Assembly (NCBI GenBank): GCA_030950835.1
Contig: JAUZQU010000174.1
Span: 1-33,171, forward strand
Direction of reading: 5' to 3'
Length of the DNA stretch: 33,171 nt
Source: Mariprofundaceae bacterium
GTDB taxonomy: Bacteria > Pseudomonadota > Zetaproteobacteria > Mariprofundales > Mariprofundaceae
Shown here: positions 6,609 through 27,518 of the stretch, in pieces
How the letters are laid out: every line of letters starts with the position of its first letter
How positions within the stretch are numbered: the stretch's first letter is position 1
Position numbers and translations under genes: made by a program
Notes under the pieces: model-generated
What the model was told of the DNA's origin: nothing
Databases searched by the model: none
What the model saw: only the letters and a program-made list of their open reading frames with translations

Positions 6609-8264
6609 TTAAGGCTGCATGGCGTTGCGTTGTAAAGCTTGGGGAATAAACCACTTCTCTTGATTGTGATAAATGCCTGCAGGAGCAGGTTTTATGCCTT
6701 GAATACGTCGGTTCACGGCGGGCAGGGCATAAGCAGCATAAAGGAAGATGAGGGGGGTGTCGTGATGGATTTCTTGTTGCATGATGTTATACCAAGCTTG
6801 GCGTTGTGGCACATCAAAAATACGGCGAGCCTTTTCCAAAGCTTCGTCCACTTTGGCATTGCTGTAGCTTAAAAAGTTAAACTGACGTTCACCTGTTTGG
6901 GAGGAGTGCCAAATGGAGTATTGATCGGGTTCAGGGTTGAGGCTCCAGCCTAAAATGACCGCGTCAAAGTTGCGGGTGTTGATGAAGCTTGCAATGAATG
7001 CTGACCATTCAATCAAACGTATGTGTACTTTAATACCAATGGTTTGCAAACGTTGCTGGATGATGGTGGCAGTGTCGGCACGTTGTTTGTTGCCATTGTT
7101 GGTGACGATGGTGAAGACAAACTTTTTACCATTTTTGCTAACAAAGGACTCACCTGGCTGTTGTACCCAGCCTGCTTGGGCGAGTAAAGCTTTGGCTTTT
7201 TGAGGATCAAAGGGGCGCGGTTTGATGTTTTGATTGACCCAAGGTGTGCCTGGTTTGTAGGGCGTGGCAATGGCTTCACCCAAACCCAACAAGACACCAT
7301 CCACCAATTCTTGGCGGTCTATCGCATAATCAATGGCTTGGCGCACTAAAATATCATCAAAAGGAGGGCGTTTGAGGTTGAAGCCAAGGTAGCTGTAGCC
7401 TGAGCCAAGGTATTGATAACGGGTATAGTTTTGTTTGAGTTGGGCATTGTTATCAAACAAACGTTTGTATTGTATGGGGGTGAGGTTCATCGCATCAATA
7501 TGGGCAGCAGTAAGCTCTAAAAACTGGGTGGCTGAATCAGGAATGATGCGGGTGATACGTTTGTTGATCCATACCTCACCATCAAAATAATCAGGGTTGG
7601 CTGTTAAAACGATAGACTGCTGATTTTGCCAATCTTCAAGAAAATAAGGACCAATACTTGCCTTAGGTTGACGGGATAATTTGGTGTCCATGATGTCTTC
7701 ATCTTTGAAGATATGTTGGGGCAAAATGGAGAGTTGTGCCCACGAAGCAAGGGCAGGGGAGAAGGTCTCTTTATAATGCACGATAAAGGTGTGGGCATCG
7801 GGTGCTTCGGCGCTTGTGACCAAGTTATAGTCTGATTTATAAGGGCTTTGGGTATGCTCATCTTGCATCAGTTGTAGGGTAAACAGGCAATCTTGAGCGC
7901 TGAAAGGTGTACCATCGCTCCATTGAAGGTTGGGTTTGATGGTGAAGGTGATGCTGAGTTTATCTTTGGAGACTTGCCAAGATTCCGCTAATTTGGGCAC
8001 AAGCTTGAAGTTGCGGTCATATTCAAGCAAGGCGAGGTAAAGTTGACCTGCAATAGCATGGCTGGAGGCATCACCTGCAATCATGGGGATTAAATTGCTG
8101 GCATCACCAATCGAAGCATCGGTAAACTGTCCACCATGGCTTGCTTGGTAGCTTGTGGTTGTTGCAGGGTGGTTTTGGATGGGTTTTTCGTCATCAGAGC
8201 ATGAAATCAGGCAAAAAAGACTGCAAAGGATGACTAACTTGGTCGAAAACGTGCGAGAATCCAT
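6609..8264 (-). CDS. ABC transporter oligopeptide-binding protein (SBP_bac_5 family), lipoprotein
   Basis: Lipobox-like LFCLISCSD, LAESWQVSKDKLSITFTIKPNLQWSDGTPFSAQD, VRQAIDYAIDRQELVDGVLLGLGEA. Confidence 0.92.
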   Translation of the reverse strand: MDSRTFSTKLVILCSLFCLISCSDDEKPIQNHPATTTSYQASHGGQFTDASIGDASNLIPMIAGDASSHAIAGQLYLALLEYDRNFKLVPKLAESWQVSKDKLSITFTIKPNLQWSDGTPFSAQDCLFTLQLMQDEHTQSPYKSDYNLVTSAEAPDAHTFIVHYKETFSPALASWAQLSILPQHIFKDEDIMDTKLSRQPKASIGPYFLEDWQNQQSIVLTANPDYFDGEVWINKRITRIIPDSATQFLELTAAHIDAMNLTPIQYKRLFDNNAQLKQNYTRYQYLGSGYSYLGFNLKRPPFDDILVRQAIDYAIDRQELVDGVLLGLGEAIATPYKPGTPWVNQNIKPRPFDPQKAKALLAQAGWVQQPGESFVSKNGKKFVFTIVTNNGNKQRADTATIIQQRLQTIGIKVHIRLIEWSAFIASFINTRNFDAVILGWSLNPEPDQYSIWHSSQTGERQFNFLSYSNAKVDEALEKARRIFDVPQRQAWYNIMQQEIHHDTPLIFLYAAYALPAVNRRIQGIKPAPAGIYHNQEKWFIPQALQRNAMQP

Positions 8265-9616
8265 AATTTATCTCCTGGTCGAATAAGGCGGCGTGTGGAC
8301 ATTTGGTTGGTGCGAGCAATGGCTTTGGCAGAAGTACCAAATTTTTGGGCAATTTTCCATAATGAGTCACCACTGCGGACTTTATAACGAATACGCCGAC
8401 CTTGGGAAAGCAAAGGGTTGGTTTTAGAGGCGACATGTTTGCTGCTGCCAGCTGTGGGTACGCTGAGCTGGTGACCAATGGATAAGATGTTTTTCAAATG
8501 TGGGTTAAGTTGGCGGAGTTGCTTGATGCTGGTGCGATACTGACGCGCAATATCCCATAAATTATCACCTTTTTGAATCGTGATGCTGATGTATTTGGGT
8601 TTAAAAGCATCAGGATTGTTTTGCATGTGCAATTTTAAGCGTTGGATGTTTTCTTGGGGTAAAAAGACTTGGGTATCGTGGTGTAGGTAGTGTTGGTAAT
8701 CAAAACCAGGGTTAAAGCGGAAGACATCGTGTTGTTGAAGACCTGCGGCTGTTTCGATGGCTTTGAGGTCAACGGGGGCTTGGATGTTGATGCTTTGGAT
8801 AGGGCTAGGCGGGCTAAATTGTAGCTCTCCTTGTTCATGTAGGGCAATCATACCAAGGATTTGTTTGACATAGTGTTTGGTTTCTCTGGGGAAGGGTAGG
8901 GCATCAAGCCCTTGAGCAGGTGTCCAAGGTGTTTTGCGTAAGCGACGTTCCACACCCCAAGGCCCAAGGTTGTAAGCACAGATGGCTAAGGTCCAATTGT
9001 CAAAACGTGCGTGCAGTTGTAATAAATAAGTGATGGCAGCTTGGCTGCTTTGTTCAATATCTCTGCGACCATCAATGCCATTGCGGTGGGTAGTTCCAAG
9101 TTCTTTGGCGGTTGCTGGCATCAGCTGCCAAAGCCCCAAAGCACCAGCAGGAGACAAAGCATAAGGTTGGTATGCAGACTCGGCAACAGGTACAAATTGT
9201 AGCTCTTCAGGGGCTTGAAGTGCTTTTAATTTCAATAAGATACGTTGTCGCACATAAAGGGCGCGTTTGTCCATGCTTGCCCATAAAATTTGACTGACTC
9301 GGCGGGCTTCATCTTGGATGATCACCATGTCTTTTGCAGTTAAGTGTTGTAAAAATAATGATTGAAACTGTATGGGGGTATCAAGGGTGGTTGCAGATGT
9401 TTGTTGGTAAATGTCTACTGGGGGTTGTTGTGCTACTATAGGTTTTACTGGTAAGTGTTGAATGACATGGGTATTTTTACTTTGCGGACTGGCGCAAGCG
9501 CTTAAAATAAGCGCAAAAAAGACAGCAAGCAAGAGGTTTGGTCTAGGAGATAAGGCTAAGTTTGTATGCTTGTTGCACGAATAGGGGTAGGTAAGTGGCT
9601 TCACGATGCCAAGCAT
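8234..9616 (-). CDS. Membrane-bound lytic murein transglycosylase D-like with two LysM domains
   Basis: LILSACAS lipobox-like, VAESAYQPYALSPAGALGLWQLMPATAKELG SLT motif, two LysM repeats (ITIQKGDNLWDIARQYRTS..., YKVRSGDSLWKIAQKFGTS...). Confidence 0.93.
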   Translation of the reverse strand: MLGIVKPLTYPYSCNKHTNLALSPRPNLLLAVFFALILSACASPQSKNTHVIQHLPVKPIVAQQPPVDIYQQTSATTLDTPIQFQSLFLQHLTAKDMVIIQDEARRVSQILWASMDKRALYVRQRILLKLKALQAPEELQFVPVAESAYQPYALSPAGALGLWQLMPATAKELGTTHRNGIDGRRDIEQSSQAAITYLLQLHARFDNWTLAICAYNLGPWGVERRLRKTPWTPAQGLDALPFPRETKHYVKQILGMIALHEQGELQFSPPSPIQSINIQAPVDLKAIETAAGLQQHDVFRFNPGFDYQHYLHHDTQVFLPQENIQRLKLHMQNNPDAFKPKYISITIQKGDNLWDIARQYRTSIKQLRQLNPHLKNILSIGHQLSVPTAGSSKHVASKTNPLLSQGRRIRYKVRSGDSLWKIAQKFGTSAKAIARTNQMSTRRLIRPGDKLWILARFRPS

Positions 9617-9728
9617 AACATGGCTTTTTTGAAGAGGAAGAATATAAATAGGTGCTTGATATTCTATGTTTCGGGGTTAATGTTTACCGAAATGTATTGT
9701 GATCTGTGATTCTTAATATGGAGGGTGT

Positions 9729-11939
9729 ATGCTGCTAAAGCAACAGCGAGAGTTGATTGATACTGGTCTTGTTTCACAAGAACAGATTTCAGAAGCTTTA
9801 GAAAGCGACCAAGCCAAAAAAGGCGGATTATTGTTGGTATTGCTTGCTATGCCTGACCTTGATAGCAATATGATTTTACAAGCCCTTGCTAAAATTTATA
9901 AAGTTCCTTACTTAGATTTAGACAACGTAGAAATTGATGCGGAAGTGGTCAAAAAATGCCCTGAAGAGCTGTGTACAGAGTATGGGTTTGTGCCGATTGA
10001 TGTTACAGGCGGCGAAATGGTGATTGCTACGGGCAATCCTATGGATTATGCGGGTATGGATGCCTTGCAGTTTAAATTGGGGCAACGTGTGCGCCCTGTG
10101 TTTGCCAGCCCTGAATTGATTCAAAAGCATATTCGTGCACTTTTTAGTGATGGTGATGCAGCGTTTGATGATGCAATGTCAGGTTTATCGGGTGGGGCAG
10201 GTTTTGAAAATGTAGAAGAAGAAGATAATGATGACTCTTCAGATTTGGATGCGCTGAAAAAAGGTGCAGATGGTTCGCCGATTATCAAATTGGTCAATGG
10301 CATTATCATTAAAGCCATGCAATTGGGCAGCTCGGATATTCATATTGAAGCGGGTGAGAAAGCCAGCGTGGTGCGTTTGCGCGTAGATGGACGTTTGCGG
10401 GCAGTGATGCAGTTTCCTAATAAGGCGCACTCCATGCTTGCTTCGCGCATCAAAATCATGTCGAAGCTGGACATTTCCAATGTAAGAACGCCACAAGATG
10501 GGCGCACCCGTGTCAAATTCATGGGTAAAAGCTTCGATATGCGTATTTCAACACTGCCTGCTTTGTATGGCGAAAAAGTGGTGATGCGTATTCTGGATAA
10601 ATCAGGGCTTTCGTTGTCGTTGGACATTTTGGCCTTTGAGAAAACTGCAGACAAACGTATCCGTGAATGTATTTCCCGCTCTACAGGCGCAGTGCTGGTG
10701 ACAGGGCCTACTGGTTCTGGTAAAACAACAACGTTGTACTCATTTTTACATCATATTAATGATGAAGAAACCAATATTGTGACAGTGGAAGACCCTGTCG
10801 AGTTTCAAATTAAAGGTTTGAACCAAGTGCAGGTTAACCCCAAAGCAGGCATGACTTTCGCGGCTGCTTTGCGCTCTATTTTACGTCAAGATCCTGACAT
10901 CGTGATGGTGGGTGAGATTCGTGATGAGGAAACAGCGCATATTGCGCTACATGCGGCGCAAACGGGTCACTTGGTGTTTTCTACTTTGCATACCAATGAT
11001 GCCCCTTCCACGGTGAGTCGTTTGGTGGAAATGGGTACGGATGCGGTGGCGCTTTCTTCATGTTTAAACATGGTGGTGGCGCAACGTTTGGCGCGTAGAT
11101 TATGTGGTAAGTGTAAAAAGAAAATAAGCCCTACGCCTGAAATGATTCAGCTGTATGAGATGCATGAAGGTATGGAAATTTATGAGCCTGTGGGTTGTAA
11201 GGCTTGCATGAACATTGGTTATAAAGGGCGTTGTGGTATTCATGAAACGCTTTATGTGAATGATGTGGTGCGTGAGGCGATTGCCCGCGAAGCTTCGGAT
11301 CAAGAGTTGATGCAGATTTGTCGTGAGCAGGGTATGTACACGCTTTTTGAAGACGGTATGAACAAGGTGTTGGCTGGTGTCACCAGTGTTAAAGAAATTA
11401 CACGCATGGCGAAGATGCCTGAAGATTTCACTTTCAGAGATAGGCTAGATGAAGACGGTAATTTGATGTCTTTGGGGCAGGCTCAGGAAGCGCGCAGCTC
11501 TTCTCAGCTGACTTCAAGCGTAGATAACGAGCGCAATACGGTGTTGGTGGTGGATGACTCTAAGAGTATTCGCAGCTTGGTGCGTTTTGTTTTGCAGGCT
11601 GAAGGTTACGATGTGATTGAAGCTGAAGACGGGCAAAAAGGTTTGGCGTTGCTGCAACAAGCAGGTTCTAAGTTGTGTTTGGTGATTGTAGACTTTGAAA
11701 TGCCGCATATGACTGGCCCTGAAATGATTGCGGCAGTGCGGCAGAAGAGTAAATATGATGATATACCTTTGGTGATGTTGACTTCGCGTAAAGATGAGGA
11801 AGATGAAGTGTTTGGCTTGGATACAGGCGCGGATGATTATATCTGTAAACCAGTAGAGCCGATGAAGTTGCAAGCTAGAGCGCGTAAAACAATCAATATG
11901 TATAATCGCATTCGTTTGGCAACACATGGGCAGGGTTAG
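9729..11939 (+). CDS. GspE/PilB-family secretion/pilus ATPase with C-terminal receiver (REC) domain
   Basis: T2SSE_N/MshEN-like N-terminus, GPTGSGKTTTLY Walker A, LRQDPDIVMVGEIRDEETAHIALHAAQTGHLVFSTLHTNDA, CGKCKKK...GCKACMNIGYKGRCGI Cys motifs; C-terminal NTVLVVDDSKSIRSL...VIVDFEMPHMTG...MLTSRK...CKPVEP; GGAGG SD at 9721. Confidence 0.95.
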   Translation: MLLKQQRELIDTGLVSQEQISEALESDQAKKGGLLLVLLAMPDLDSNMILQALAKIYKVPYLDLDNVEIDAEVVKKCPEELCTEYGFVPIDVTGGEMVIATGNPMDYAGMDALQFKLGQRVRPVFASPELIQKHIRALFSDGDAAFDDAMSGLSGGAGFENVEEEDNDDSSDLDALKKGADGSPIIKLVNGIIIKAMQLGSSDIHIEAGEKASVVRLRVDGRLRAVMQFPNKAHSMLASRIKIMSKLDISNVRTPQDGRTRVKFMGKSFDMRISTLPALYGEKVVMRILDKSGLSLSLDILAFEKTADKRIRECISRSTGAVLVTGPTGSGKTTTLYSFLHHINDEETNIVTVEDPVEFQIKGLNQVQVNPKAGMTFAAALRSILRQDPDIVMVGEIRDEETAHIALHAAQTGHLVFSTLHTNDAPSTVSRLVEMGTDAVALSSCLNMVVAQRLARRLCGKCKKKISPTPEMIQLYEMHEGMEIYEPVGCKACMNIGYKGRCGIHETLYVNDVVREAIAREASDQELMQICREQGMYTLFEDGMNKVLAGVTSVKEITRMAKMPEDFTFRDRLDEDGNLMSLGQAQEARSSSQLTSSVDNERNTVLVVDDSKSIRSLVRFVLQAEGYDVIEAEDGQKGLALLQQAGSKLCLVIVDFEMPHMTGPEMIAAVRQKSKYDDIPLVMLTSRKDEEDEVFGLDTGADDYICKPVEPMKLQARARKTINMYNRIRLATHGQG
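11534..11927 (+). other. Receiver domain segment fused to the ATPase
   Basis: All canonical receiver residues retained (DD, D, T, K). Confidence 0.9.
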
Positions 11940-11941
11940 TG

Positions 11942-12427: not shown

Positions 12428-13954
12428 ATGGAAAAGAATGGAGTAATAACAATGGCTGAAGAAATCAGTGTTGGGCAAGATGAAATCAAAGAAGTAAGCA
12501 GTAAAAAGAAAGAGAAGAAATCCGTTAACTTAAGGCAGTTGGCACGACGCAATATGGCCTGGTCATCTATGTTTTTTGTGGTGCTTATCGGAACGGTGGG
12601 TTTCACCTCTTTTCAGGCGACTACGAATATGGATGCATTGTCGTCTTTGTATGAACAGCAGAATGATTTGGAACGATTTCGGGCGACAGTGCCCGATGTA
12701 TTGCTGCCTTTGAATGACTTTGTGTTGACCGGAAATGAAGAAGATATTCATAAAATTGAGACTGCAACCCAACAATTTAACCAGCTTTATGCACGGGTAT
12801 CTCAGTTCTCTTTGTTGACTGCTGAAGATGCAAGCGAGTTGGATAGTGTGAACCAGCTGATGACTTTGGTAAGTACATCAGCTGATGATATTACATCAGG
12901 CGTCACCCCTGATGACCAAATTGGTAGCTTGGCGATTGTAGCGCGAAACTTGGTGTTTGTGGTGCAAAAGAAGATTAACACAGTGGCAGGACATTTGAAA
13001 AACGCTTTGGTGGCAGAAACGGATAGTAAAACGGAACAAATGACCATGTTGATGTATATCAATATGGGTATTATTGCGGCAATTTTGATGCTTTTGTTTG
13101 TTTTAAGCCGTGGTTTCACCTCCAGTATAACCAATCGTATCACTACAGTGGCACAGAATGTTGCTTTATCATCCGAAGATATTTTGGCGGCGGTGGATCA
13201 TCAGGCAACAGCTTCAGGCACCCAAGCGAAAACGGTGGTAGATGTGACGGGTGAGTTGAGTGTGATGTCCAGTGCAGCGATTAAAATCGCGAGTACGGCA
13301 ACCAGTGTAGAGCGTATTGCAACTGCAACAACACTGGCGGCGAATGATGGGGTGAAAGCAGTGAAAGAAGCGATTGGTTACATGGACAGGATTCGTGCGG
13401 AAGTGGAATTGATTGCGGAGAAAGTATCCGATGCGGGGCGAAAAGCAGAGCAGATTTTGGAATCAGTCGATTCGATTCAGGAAATTGCTGATGAGACCCA
13501 TTTACTGGCACTTAATGCATCTATTGAGTCTGCAGCTGCGGGTGAATTTGGTAAACGTTTTGCCGTGGTGGCGAGTGAGGTGCGTAGGCTTTCTGAACGT
13601 GCAAGAGAGTTTACAGAAGAGATTCAAACGGTGGTCAATGAAGTGCATACGTCTACCAAGGAGTCCATTGATGTGACCCGGCAAGGGCTTGCCGAGGTGG
13701 CAAAAGGGGTGGAAATTGCGCGTCGTGCGGGTGATGCACTGGTGAAAATGCAGGACATGTCGGAGAAAACAAGTCAGGCGGTACATACCATTGCTTTGGC
13801 AACCAAACGTCAAAGTGATACGAGTGAGAAATTTGTGGTGACCATGCAACAGATGTCACAACTCTTACAAAACTCAGCTGTTGAGATGCAGGATTCGCGT
13901 GATTCAGCGGTACAGTTGAATAATGTGTCGGATGAATTGAGAAAGTTCGTTTAA
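12428..13954 (+). CDS. Methyl-accepting chemotaxis protein with divergent signalling tip
   Basis: Two TM segments flanking a helical periplasmic region; THLLALNASIESAAAGEFGKRFAVVASEVRRLSERAREFTEEI; alternative start at MAEEISVG. Confidence 0.93.
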   Translation: MEKNGVITMAEEISVGQDEIKEVSSKKKEKKSVNLRQLARRNMAWSSMFFVVLIGTVGFTSFQATTNMDALSSLYEQQNDLERFRATVPDVLLPLNDFVLTGNEEDIHKIETATQQFNQLYARVSQFSLLTAEDASELDSVNQLMTLVSTSADDITSGVTPDDQIGSLAIVARNLVFVVQKKINTVAGHLKNALVAETDSKTEQMTMLMYINMGIIAAILMLLFVLSRGFTSSITNRITTVAQNVALSSEDILAAVDHQATASGTQAKTVVDVTGELSVMSSAAIKIASTATSVERIATATTLAANDGVKAVKEAIGYMDRIRAEVELIAEKVSDAGRKAEQILESVDSIQEIADETHLLALNASIESAAAGEFGKRFAVVASEVRRLSERAREFTEEIQTVVNEVHTSTKESIDVTRQGLAEVAKGVEIARRAGDALVKMQDMSEKTSQAVHTIALATKRQSDTSEKFVVTMQQMSQLLQNSAVEMQDSRDSAVQLNNVSDELRKFV

Positions 13955-13970
13955 GCGTATATAACTTAAT

Positions 13971-16727
13971 ATGGCAGATTTTGACTTATCCAACTTCATT
14001 GCTTCGTTTTTTGATGAGGCAAGAGATCGTTTAAACTCGATCAACCAGCACTTGGTTGATTTCGAATCAGGCACTTTGGATAACAACGGGCTGACTGATT
14101 TGCGCCGTGATGCGCATACCATTAAAGGCTCAGCGCTGATGTTGGGTGTGAATGACGTGGGTGCGATTGCACATCTCTTTGAGGATATGATGGAAGAACT
14201 CATCAAACATCCTGATTGGCAAGTGCCGAAATCGATTCAGTTTTTGTATGACTTGCATGATATGTTGGATGTACGTTTGCAAGACCCTGATGGCGCAGTT
14301 TTGCTGGAAGATACAGAGAAAAAAGCTGAATATAAGATTATTATGGATGAACTGCGTCAGGGTCAGGTTGCGACTGAATCGACGGTTGAACCAGTAGCTG
14401 AACAAGCGAAAGTAGAAACACAAGAGTTTCCTACAGAGGTGTTACAACAAGATGTAACAACGCAGTTTGTAGAGCCAGCTAAGCCACAGCTTGAAGATTA
14501 TAGTCTGTCTTCGTTACCCGATGAAAATCATGAAGGTTTTGTAGGTGATAATTTTACCTTGAGTGACATCCCTTTGTTGAGTTTGGCTGATGATGGGCTT
14601 GAAGAAGTTGAAAGTGAGTTCGCTCTTGTTGATTTAGAAGATGTGCTTGAGGGTAATCAGACTACTGAAGGTATTGGGCATCAAGATATAAGCTTTGCAG
14701 AAAATGCTGCTGACTTGTTTGAAACAACAGTGGATCAAGTGCAAGTAGAGCAAGATCTTGGTTTGCAAATATTTGAAGAAATTGAAACAGTCGAAACAGT
14801 CGAAACAGTCGAAACAGTGCCTCAAGGTGCAGATGAACGTATTCACATCGCTGAAGAACCAAGTGCACCAGCGTTTGCTGATGACTTTGTTACCTCTGAT
14901 TTCCGCCCTATAGTTACAGAAGAGAAGAAAAAAGGCTCAGGGCAACGTCAAAATTCTGGTCGTTTTTTACGGGTAGATGCAGAACGTTTAGAAGAGCTGT
15001 CGCATCATATCATTGAAATGAGTACAGAGCAGAGCCGCTCCTCAAAAGCAGAGAGTGATTTGGGGCAAACGCAGTTGGAATTGAGGGCAATTCGTCGTGA
15101 AATGCGCAAAATGCAACATGTAGTGGAAGCGAATCCAGACGCTAAGTCAACATTGCAGAATATGGAGCATATGCTGGATGTACATATGCGGAAAATCCGT
15201 CGTATGAGCGAGGAAACACGTTATCAATCTGAACGTAGTAGTTTGGTATTGCGCGAGCTTCGTGACCAAGTGCTGGGTTTGATGTTACGTCCCTTAGATA
15301 GTATTTTCTCCACTTTTCCGCGCGCAGTGCGTGATGTCGCGGCGCGTATTGGTAAACGTGTACGTTTGGTGGTGGATGGCAAAACTGTGGAAATGGATCA
15401 AAGCGTAGCTGAATCCTTGGTGGAGCCGCTGGTACATTTATTGAATAATGCAGTTGCACATGGTATCGAAGATAATGCAGAACGGGTGCGCCTTGGCAAA
15501 CCTGAAGAAGGACAGGTGACGATTGTTGCCCACCAAAATGGTAATGAAGTACGCATTGAAGTGATGGATGATGGACGTGGTATTGATACCGAAGTCATTA
15601 AACGTGTAGCCGTTGAACGTGGTGTGACCACTCAAGATGAAGCCGATTTGATGGATTCGGCTGAAATTTTGGAAATGATTTTTCGCCCTGGGTTTTCCAC
15701 TATGGATGAAGTGGGTTCGTTGGCAGGGCGTGGTATTGGTATGAATGTGGTGCAAGATACGTTGCGTCGTTTAACGGGTTCGATTCGTATTCATACTGAG
15801 CTTGGTAAAGGTACGCGTTTTGTGCTTGCAGTACCGGTGAGTGTAGCGGTGCAACAGGCATTGATGTTTACGATTGGCAATCAGCAATATGGCATGTTGA
15901 CCCATATGATTGAGCAAGCGGTACCGTATAACAAACAAAAAATTGAGAAAGGTGTGGGTGGTAAACAGTTCCTTTCTTATGAGTCTCACCAAGTTCCTAT
16001 TGTAGATTTGCGCAGAATGATGCTGAAAAAAGGCTCGGTATTATCTGAGAATCCTTATATTATTGTTTCTGAACATATTGAAGGGTTTGTGGGCATTGTG
16101 GTGGATGATTTGTTGGGAGATGGTGAGATTGTGGTGCGTAACCTTGATCCTTATATCAAACGTTACCAACCACAAGGTTTGATGGGTAATACCATTATTG
16201 ATGATGGTTCTGTGGTGATGTTACTTGAGCCTTACGGCATCAAAGAAATGGGCAGAACATCACCTGATCAAGACATTGAAATCAACATTGAAGAAGAAGA
16301 TAAGTTGGACTTTAGCATATTGCTGGTGGATGACTCGTTGATTGCGCGTGAAATTGAGCGCAGTATCTTTGAAAGCCTTGGTTTTACCGTGGCAACAGCG
16401 ATTGATGGCATGGATGGTTTGGAAAAACTCGATGCAGGTGAATATGACATGATTATCACTGACTTAGAAATGCCACGTTTGGATGGTTTTGGTTTTGTGC
16501 GTCAAATTCGCAACCAACCTGAATATGAAGACATGCCTGTGATGGTAATTTCTACCCGTGAAAGTGCTGAAGACAGAATGCGGGCATTAGAAGCGGGCGC
16601 CGATTCATATATGGTTAAACAACATTTGGATGGAGATAGCATTCTTGCCACGGTGCAAGCTTTGGTGGGTCCGTTGGTTGCTAAGCAACATGGTGTAAAG
16701 CATGATCCCACAAGCGAAGTTCAGTAA
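13971..16727 (+). CDS. CheA-type hybrid histidine kinase (Hpt - acidic linker - HATPase - CheW - REC)
   Basis: Hpt DLRRDAHTIKGSALMLG, N-box HLLNNAVAHGIED, DDGRGID, GRGIGMNVV, CheW-like C-region, REC LLVDDSLIAREIE...IITDLEMPRLDGFG...VISTRES...MVKQ. Confidence 0.95.
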   Translation: MADFDLSNFIASFFDEARDRLNSINQHLVDFESGTLDNNGLTDLRRDAHTIKGSALMLGVNDVGAIAHLFEDMMEELIKHPDWQVPKSIQFLYDLHDMLDVRLQDPDGAVLLEDTEKKAEYKIIMDELRQGQVATESTVEPVAEQAKVETQEFPTEVLQQDVTTQFVEPAKPQLEDYSLSSLPDENHEGFVGDNFTLSDIPLLSLADDGLEEVESEFALVDLEDVLEGNQTTEGIGHQDISFAENAADLFETTVDQVQVEQDLGLQIFEEIETVETVETVETVPQGADERIHIAEEPSAPAFADDFVTSDFRPIVTEEKKKGSGQRQNSGRFLRVDAERLEELSHHIIEMSTEQSRSSKAESDLGQTQLELRAIRREMRKMQHVVEANPDAKSTLQNMEHMLDVHMRKIRRMSEETRYQSERSSLVLRELRDQVLGLMLRPLDSIFSTFPRAVRDVAARIGKRVRLVVDGKTVEMDQSVAESLVEPLVHLLNNAVAHGIEDNAERVRLGKPEEGQVTIVAHQNGNEVRIEVMDDGRGIDTEVIKRVAVERGVTTQDEADLMDSAEILEMIFRPGFSTMDEVGSLAGRGIGMNVVQDTLRRLTGSIRIHTELGKGTRFVLAVPVSVAVQQALMFTIGNQQYGMLTHMIEQAVPYNKQKIEKGVGGKQFLSYESHQVPIVDLRRMMLKKGSVLSENPYIIVSEHIEGFVGIVVDDLLGDGEIVVRNLDPYIKRYQPQGLMGNTIIDDGSVVMLLEPYGIKEMGRTSPDQDIEINIEEEDKLDFSILLVDDSLIAREIERSIFESLGFTVATAIDGMDGLEKLDAGEYDMIITDLEMPRLDGFGFVRQIRNQPEYEDMPVMVISTRESAEDRMRALEAGADSYMVKQHLDGDSILATVQALVGPLVAKQHGVKHDPTSEVQ
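14784..14819 (+). repeat. Tandem 9-bp repeat GAAACAGTC x4 (in-frame ETV repeats)
   Basis: gaaacagtcgaaacagtcgaaacagtcgaaacagtg. Confidence 0.97.
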
Positions 16728-25385: not shown

Positions 25386-27518
25386 TTAGACGTGTTCAGC
25401 ATGTTCATCCCGAATTTGGGACAATGATTTCAAAAAGTCTTCAATTTCTTGGCTTTGTTTGCTGGCAGTTTGATCCAGCGTGGAGGAAGCTTGCAACAAG
25501 CTTTCGGACATTTCCGAAGCTTCTTTAGATGCCAAAGAGACATCTTCCATCGCGCTGGCAACGTGAGAAATACCACCCTGTGCCAACTGTGCGCTTTGTG
25601 AGATTTGCTGGGTGCTTTCTGCTTGGGTTTGCATCACATTATTGACCCTTTGGTTGATGTCGTACACTTGTTCAACCACTTCTAAGATTCCTGTAATCGC
25701 TTGAGAAGCCAACAAGCTTTCAGACTGCAATAAAGTGATTTGTTCGCTAATATCTTTGGTGGCTTGGGCAGTTTCTGATGCCAAAGCTTTCACTTCACCA
25801 GCGACCACCGCAAAACCACGCCCTGATTCACCTGCTCTAGCCGCCTCAATGCTGGCATTGAGTGCGAGTAAGTTGGTTTGTTCAGCAATATCATTGATAA
25901 CGCCGACTACCATGCTGATATCATTGGAGTTTTTATGTAGTTTAGTCATGTTCACACCTGCCGCCTCTGCTTGCAGGGAAGCTTGTTTGGAGACATCAAG
26001 TGCATGTTTAATTTCTTCACATACTTTACCAATCGCAGTGTTCATTTGGGTAGAGGCAGAGGCATTGGATTGTACGCTTTGATAACCCGTATCCACGCCT
26101 TCTTCAACCAACTCAATTTGGCTGGATAGCTCTACAGCAGTGGTGGCTAAATGTTGGGAGGTTTCATTGACTTGTGATGAAGCATGGGTGACTTGTTGCA
26201 TCATATGGGCGATTTTTTCTTCAAATTGGTAAATCACATCCGACTCAGCTTGTTGCCATTGTTGTTGGCGCTTCATTTTCTGTTCTTGTTCTAAGGTTTT
26301 CACATCTTGTTCGGCTTGTTCTTGGCGTGCTTTCTCTTGTTGATTATGATTGAATGTTTCCCTGTCGATTTGAGCTTGTTTTAAGTCTTCCTGCATACCT
26401 TGCAAGGCGATGAATAAAGAGCCAATCTCATCTTGACGTTTGATATTGATGGGTGTGTCTAAATGACCTGCCGCAATATTCTTCGACACTTTAATCGCAT
26501 GACTTAAGGCATTCATAAACTCCATAGGTACGTATAATCCCAAAGCAATGGCTAAGATAATCGCGATCATGGTAATGCTTAACATCCAGAATTGAGCTTG
26601 GGATACAGCTGCTTTTAAATCTTGTTGACCATGAATCATGCTGGCATGAATGAGGCTCTCAGCATCATCTGCCAATTGAATGAAACGTGCGTACTCTTGG
26701 CTGAATGTCTGATCAACCACGCTATCTGCGGCGATACCACCTAAAGTAAAAGTATTACGTTGATGGGCAACACCAATAAATTGGCTAATCATACTACTTA
26801 TTTCTGTATTACTTGAATCGTCCATGTTTTGCACATGTTGGGCTGCGGCATCAAAGTCAGCAATGATACTATTCATGTTGTTGCTGGCATCACCACTTAA
26901 CATTTCTTCAAAGAAAAGGTGTCCATTGGCGAGTAAATACTTGGCTTCTCCAGCGTGACGCACGGTATTGACCTTTTGTTGTGGTTTTTGCACGATGCTG
27001 GTGAGTTTGGCTTGGATTTTTTCATACATGCGATCAAAAGCTTGGTCGGACTCGGTACCCACACCAGCAGATTGAGCATGGTGGTCATAACGGGTATGGG
27101 CGACGGCGATAAAACGGGTTAAACTTGCTTTGACCTCACGCATGATATTCAATACAGCAGGGTCTGTGCTGGCTTTGAAGCTGCCTTCCTGATTATTGCC
27201 GCCATGTAAAACAGCATCGGTATACCAGAGGGATGCGTTAAAATATGCCCAAGCTTGTTGAATATCTTGGTTGTTATTGCCTGCGATAACTTCCTCGAAA
27301 GTTAATGTTCCTTGTGTGGCAGTGAGCTTGATTTCCATCGCCGCATCACTTAATGGTGCTAACTCTTCACCTACCATCACCCCTTTTTCTGCAATGTAGT
27401 TGGCATAATAAATACCAAAACTACCTGTGAGGGCGGTGAGCAGGGCGATACCCAAAAAAGAACCAATTAATTGTTGTTTAAGACCCAAGTTAAAATGAAA
27501 CATAAGTGTATTCTCCAT
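25386..27518 (-). CDS. Methyl-accepting chemotaxis protein (canonical signalling tip)
   Basis: N-terminal TM, large periplasmic region, HAMP (NIAAGHLDTPINIKRQDEIGSLFIALQGM), NLLALNASIEAARAGESGRGFAVVAGEVKALASETAQATKDI. Confidence 0.95.
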   Translation of the reverse strand: MENTLMFHFNLGLKQQLIGSFLGIALLTALTGSFGIYYANYIAEKGVMVGEELAPLSDAAMEIKLTATQGTLTFEEVIAGNNNQDIQQAWAYFNASLWYTDAVLHGGNNQEGSFKASTDPAVLNIMREVKASLTRFIAVAHTRYDHHAQSAGVGTESDQAFDRMYEKIQAKLTSIVQKPQQKVNTVRHAGEAKYLLANGHLFFEEMLSGDASNNMNSIIADFDAAAQHVQNMDDSSNTEISSMISQFIGVAHQRNTFTLGGIAADSVVDQTFSQEYARFIQLADDAESLIHASMIHGQQDLKAAVSQAQFWMLSITMIAIILAIALGLYVPMEFMNALSHAIKVSKNIAAGHLDTPINIKRQDEIGSLFIALQGMQEDLKQAQIDRETFNHNQQEKARQEQAEQDVKTLEQEQKMKRQQQWQQAESDVIYQFEEKIAHMMQQVTHASSQVNETSQHLATTAVELSSQIELVEEGVDTGYQSVQSNASASTQMNTAIGKVCEEIKHALDVSKQASLQAEAAGVNMTKLHKNSNDISMVVGVINDIAEQTNLLALNASIEAARAGESGRGFAVVAGEVKALASETAQATKDISEQITLLQSESLLASQAITGILEVVEQVYDINQRVNNVMQTQAESTQQISQSAQLAQGGISHVASAMEDVSLASKEASEMSESLLQASSTLDQTASKQSQEIEDFLKSLSQIRDEHAEHV

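Follow-up and report, generated by a model that had tools for sequence, protein, structure and literature searches.

The window that we analysed, the whole stretch of 33,171 nucleotides from a Mariprofundaceae bacterium, contains a reading frame that joins a pilus-type ATPase to a receiver domain and lies directly ahead of the genes for a chemosensory array. This locus raises the question of whether a sensed signal may control a motor directly and, if so, which machine that motor would drive. A first-pass annotation, made from the letters alone, had described a complete GspE/PilB-family ATPase with an in-frame receiver, followed directly by CheW, an MCP and a hybrid CheA, and had inferred a possible hard-wired link from array to motor. 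Pfam searches bore out both the architecture of the protein and the order of the genes (Table 1). The ATPase and receiver lie in a single open frame of 736 codons with no internal stop, and the GTG start of cheW begins on the final base of the TAG that closes it (TAGTG at 11937-11941), with an ATG three bases further on.

Table 1. Features of the pilB-REC locus (positions are those of the window)
Feature	Position	Strand	Basis
MltD-type lytic transglycosylase with LysM domains; divergent, conserved neighbour	8234..9616	-	Pfam/NCBIfam, loci compared
GGAGGG, Shine-Dalgarno-like, ahead of the fusion ATG	9720..9725	+	direct sequence reading
pilB-REC, PilB-type extension ATPase with C-terminal receiver domain, 736 aa	9729..11939	+	Pfam and orthologues
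MshEN domain, residues 57-144	9897..10160	+	Pfam, E 1.7e-21
T2SSE/PilB ATPase core, residues 180-559	10266..11405	+	Pfam, E 5e-136; catalytic motifs and zinc cysteines all present
Linker, residues 563-603; conserved P564, E565, F567, R572, L579, S581, G583	11415..11537	+	alignment
Receiver domain (Response_reg), residues 605-718	11541..11882	+	Pfam, E 1e-24
cheW; start overlaps the fusion stop codon	11939..12421	+	Pfam
MCP chemoreceptor; variable N-terminal sensor part and conserved MCP signalling domain	12428..13954	+	Pfam, domain identities
Hybrid CheA: Hpt with His49 (codon 14115-14117), HATPase, CheW, C-terminal REC	13971..16727	+	Pfam
CheA receiver domain, residues 783-888; phospho-acceptor set intact	16317..16634	+	Pfam

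The first-pass annotation had named a stop or frameshift between ATPase and receiver, or a fusion that is not conserved, as outcomes that would count against it. More than 50 independent assemblies, a few of which end at a contig edge, read through in the same frame; this excludes an assembly chimera or frameshift, and we found the fusion across the genus, family and order and in another class. The Walker A lysine, the Walker B glutamate E396, the His-box histidine and the four zinc cysteines were kept in all 51 full-length fusions, and the five receiver residues, namely the acid pair D609/D610, the phospho-acceptor D655 (codon 11691-11693), T685 and K707, were all kept in 49 of the 51. Judged by its sequence, the fusion is a real, conserved protein with intact catalytic residues. 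The acid pair is altered in G127 (DGDTK), where the cognate CheA is present, and has decayed in G153 (DRDSK), a genome without cognate CheA, as would be expected if CheA were the partner of the receiver. A fold predicted by AlphaFold without an alignment reached a pLDDT of 35, and the interface is not readable from such a model. Control by c-di-GMP through the MshEN domain was rejected. The upstream RLGxx c-di-GMP motif of MshE, which we took as given in PMC10333796, was missing in all 16 aligned fusions, so the domain probably does not bind c-di-GMP; the motif is present in the canonical PilB of the same genome.

To place the motor, we compared ATPase domains. In a tree of 50 proteins, the fusions formed one clade (support 100/99) that fell inside the PilB-type group (98/97), and GspE, the multi-MshEN ATPases and PilT lay outside this group; a sister relation with the canonical PilBs that these genomes also encode had weak support (88/44). 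The best NCBIfam match was PilB (TIGR02538) at 617.6 bits, below the cut-off of 675.65, and the score against the TfpB model (433.9 bits) also fell short of its cut-off of 850. The T2SSE core motifs, the zinc cysteines and the grouping with PilB are those of a PilB-type extension ATPase. Like canonical PilB, its nearest clade, the fusion has an MshEN-like N domain, a complete T2SSE core and the zinc cysteines; unlike canonical PilB, to which it is about 40% identical, it belongs to a clade of its own, carries a C-terminal receiver and has no RLG motif. Its gene adjoins cheW and not pilC/pilD. We file the protein, on these features, as a PilB-like but separate subfamily and not as canonical PilB. 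TfpB of Acinetobacter baylyi, where two extension motors serve a single pilus (PMC8213720), is comparable in being phylogenetically distinct from the PilB that it accompanies and in not lying beside pilC, but the part of its description available to us mentions neither a receiver nor a chemosensory operon. Another PilB-like ATPase, in G036 (L031:1498-3948), likewise unites a PilB-type motor with signal-receiving domains, but these are two N-terminal cNMP-binding domains and it has no receiver. Further ATPase paralogues in the family and in G029 (L136-L142) contain several stacked MshEN-type repeats with LG-type motifs and are possibly tuned by c-di-GMP.

Beyond this genome, we found the fusion in 14 more members of the genus, 51 more of the family, a second family of the order and a lineage belonging to another class. 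Among 40 relatives, identity was 72-79% within the genus, 58-66% in further genera, 55% in G025 (another family of the same order) and 48% in G029, the single genome that represents the other class in our collection. Across 399 genomes of the phylum, scanned at a threshold of 1e-175 that recovers orthologues only, the fusion turned up in 54 (a few copies cut by contig ends), with G025 and G029 the only ones outside the family. Searching plasmids with tblastn returned PilB/GspE matches or separate adjacent genes, the fusion not being among the matches, and one contig scan with the lone fusion protein as query returned only an unrelated receiver match.

The gene order around the fusion is conserved. 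CheW follows directly in 20 of 20 contigs and the MCP comes next in 19 of them; CheA was present in each of the 10 contigs that reach far enough, split into two overlapping frames in G005. When four further complete loci were added to the 10 from the first locus reading, all 14 loci that span the four genes, that of the other class included, showed the order fusion-CheW-MCP-CheA. From these comparisons, the fusion and its operon linkage are real and old. Mean pairwise identity was 71% for the ATPase, 66% for the CheA Hpt domain, 62% for the motor receiver, 60% for the MCP signalling domain, 39% for the sensor part and 31% for the linker. Receiver and Hpt are thus conserved nearly as well as the ATPase while the sensor part and the linker vary, and therefore the parts of the phospho-relay are kept as the sensed signal changes. 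The MltD-type transglycosylase and a family 5 solute-binding protein (6609-9616, minus strand) stand divergently beside the fusion in most loci read, a neighbourhood that extends even to the lineage of another class. The window also holds a second MCP (25389-27518, minus strand; 710 aa) with HAMP and signalling domains and no adjoining kinase in the window.

In CheA, the Hpt histidine was kept in 17 of the 17 loci in which Hpt aligned, and the CheA receiver has an acid pair of E or D followed by D, with the phospho-acceptor D and the K each kept in 18 of 18. This receiver is a predicted competitor of the motor receiver for phosphate. No Pfam match was obtained for a dimerisation domain in the CheA of the module, whereas the other two CheAs of the genome have one. 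The Hpt region is duplicated in the module CheA of some relatives (L122:3960-6833, L113:2952-5927). Within the fusion operon we found no cheR, no cheB and no separate receiver of the PilG/PilH type; CheR genes lie elsewhere in the genome. One relative, G123, has the module and no CheR match above the cut-off, which suggests that methylation is not essential to it.

Fusion and cognate CheA (called at E below 1e-100) are closely associated. Among 74 genomes of the family, 50 have both, 3 the fusion only, 5 CheA only and 16 neither (Fisher P 2e-9), one of the 50, G014, being represented by an N-terminal fragment of the fusion; above 95% completeness the counts are 24, 0, 0 and 7. These P values are descriptive, and co-loss is weaker evidence than they imply because one deletion can remove adjacent genes and the genomes, which share kinship, are not independent. 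Genera g4, g5 and g9 each contain genomes with and without the module, which has thus probably been lost more than once. The first-pass annotation had asked whether the fusion always co-occurs with CheW-MCP-CheA. It does so at all 14 loci, and 50 and 16 genomes are concordant, but the association, though very strong, is not universal, as eight genomes have one partner only. In G137, G190 and G153 the fusion lies on contigs without CheW downstream and CheA is missing; G137 and G190 nevertheless keep the receiver intact, so other kinases may serve it there. Conversely, G149 and G208 hold CheW-MCP-CheA with MltD upstream and no fusion in between, which argues that CheA has another output. Two further exceptions count neither for nor against, as the contig of G276 breaks off within CheW and that of G258 starts just 636 bases ahead of CheW. 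In G194 an in-frame deletion of approximately residues 293-583, Walker motifs included, has left the receiver and CheW-MCP-CheA in place (L108:1906-3417); because the receiver is intact without an ATPase core, its function may extend further than control of the motor. With an intact receiver in CheA itself and with genomes that keep either partner alone, 'hard-wired' proves too strong a term, and 'dedicated, but separable' should replace it.

We consider it fairly probable that PilB-REC serves the ordinary type IVa pilus as an accessory extension ATPase and is under direct phospho-control by the chemosensory array of its own operon. The MCP and CheW would set the activity of CheA, which would phosphorylate the histidine of its own Hpt domain. 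Phosphate would then pass either to D655 of the motor or to the receiver of CheA, the latter serving as a sink or second output. Phosphorylation would alter the face of the motor receiver, and the conserved linker would couple this face to the ATPase hexamer. The signal would thereby decide whether the second motor engages PilC and extends the pilus, alongside canonical PilB or in its place. We infer the phosphotransfer to the motor, its direction (activation or inhibition) and the use of PilC. Given a conserved fusion with intact catalytic residues and a firm genetic link to CheW-MCP-CheA, the most economical reading is that CheA phosphorylates the motor directly.

The choice of client machine is where one competing explanation enters, that the motor drives type II secretion or another pilus. 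The earlier annotation had noted that no pilC, pilT, pilM-Q or type II secretion genes lie in the window and had left the machine as unknown. For the window this is correct, and the missing pilC and gsp genes favour a different machine, as does a second platform protein that many genomes encode beside GspE. For the genome it does not hold: PilB, PilC, PilD, PilM, PilT and PilU are encoded elsewhere, with pilB-pilC-pilS-pilR-pilD on contig C55, three pilT/pilU-type genes on contig C130 and pilM likewise outside the window, and almost every genome of the family has PilM and PilT. Counting one platform protein as two T2SSF repeats, we found that G018, G042, G050 (99% complete) and G127 (92%) combine the fusion with just two repeats in one frame, that is, with one platform; in G018, G042 and G050 this PilC-type protein adjoins canonical PilB. 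No private platform for the fusion was found in these four genomes, where a divergent one could fall below the threshold. Since single-platform genomes show no platform of its own, the fusion most likely works on PilC, and the ordinary type IVa pilus is its likely client; GspE, moreover, forms a separate clade. A different machine is therefore highly improbable. Flagella were rejected as the main reading of the module, as genomes at least 90% complete include four with the fusion and no FlhA and four with FlhA and no fusion; a weaker association between fusion and FlhA persists among them (P 0.02). In the canonical pilB of this genome, codon 486 is an in-frame TAA (L040:6281-6283, contig C55) where the genes of relatives read through. 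Should this stop be genuine rather than an error of assembly, the genome would have PilB-REC as its sole complete PilB-type motor.

The remaining explanations concern what the receiver does to the motor. It might govern location or competition rather than ATPase rate, so that phosphorylated fusion would sit at the pole or on PilC and displace or block PilB or PilT, with ATP turnover secondary. PilG of Pseudomonas reportedly acts on the localisation of PilB (PMC12632253), G194 retains MshEN and receiver without the ATPase core, and receiver-bearing paralogues that have lost catalytic residues (described below) still have an intact receiver. We hold this explanation to be possible though somewhat unlikely; the catalytic residues are invariant in every full-length fusion (51/51), which argues that selection maintains ATP turnover in almost every lineage. 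It is also conceivable that CheA works mainly through its own receiver or another regulator, leaving the motor receiver as a phosphate sink or minor target. The CheA receiver is intact in nearly all loci and G149 and G208 have the CheA module without the fusion, yet a sink requires no motor, a fully catalytic ATPase has been conserved over class-level divergence and the fusion is nearly always lost along with CheA. This makes the sink quite unlikely.

Direct phospho-control of PilB-REC would differ from what is described elsewhere. As in the Pil-Chp system of Pseudomonas (PilG/PilH, ChpA), a chemosensory CheA with a receiver of its own would act on an extension motor, and, as Pil-Chp-type systems do, the fusion locus links CheA, MCP and CheW to a pilus gene. 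In Pil-Chp, however, separate PilG and PilH act on PilB, reportedly by way of its localisation, whereas the motor of the fusion locus carries the receiver itself and its operon encodes neither these proteins nor the CheR/CheB pair. Synechocystis offers a second likeness, in that the cyanobacterial response regulator PixE has been reported to bind PilB1 (PMC7690835); PATAN-receiver regulators of this kind are separate proteins with a PATAN domain and involve no covalent fusion. The literature searched, most subscription papers lying outside it, yielded no account of a PilB with a fused receiver, and the words 'receiver' and 'fused' do not appear in a 2024 review of PilB control (PMC11656802). 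The route from array to pilus motor is incompletely understood, the separate receivers of Pseudomonas being thought to act on motor localisation; the covalent union of receiver and motor reduces the question to one purified protein and one kinase.

Degenerate relatives of the fusion with receivers occur in three genera, outside the chemosensory operon. On contig C14 of the genome studied here (G000), a frame of at least 1069 aa (L039:2574-5780) encodes a T2SSE domain, a long linker and a receiver. At a threshold of 1e-60 this protein had appeared unique to G000, a view that we rejected on finding similar long-frame paralogues in G017 and G018 (847 and 832 aa; L156:2758-5298, L157:3636-6131). 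The latter two score higher against PilB-REC than against PilB, and the tree places the C14 protein inside the fusion clade, though on a very long branch. A protein of this sort, degenerate as a motor but with its receiver intact, would be an attractive partner or competitor of PilB-REC. We think it unlikely, but worth stating, that active PilB-REC and the degenerate paralogue (in at least three genera) make up a receiver-bearing subfamily of pilus motors that would form a phosphorylation-controlled clutch, by mixed hexamers or by competition for PilC, and so set extension directly from the chemosensory array. All three paralogues keep Walker A and lack the His box; G017 retains the Walker B glutamate, which C14 and G018 have lost. 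The receiver residues are kept throughout, with Glu-Asp as the acid pair of the C14 protein.
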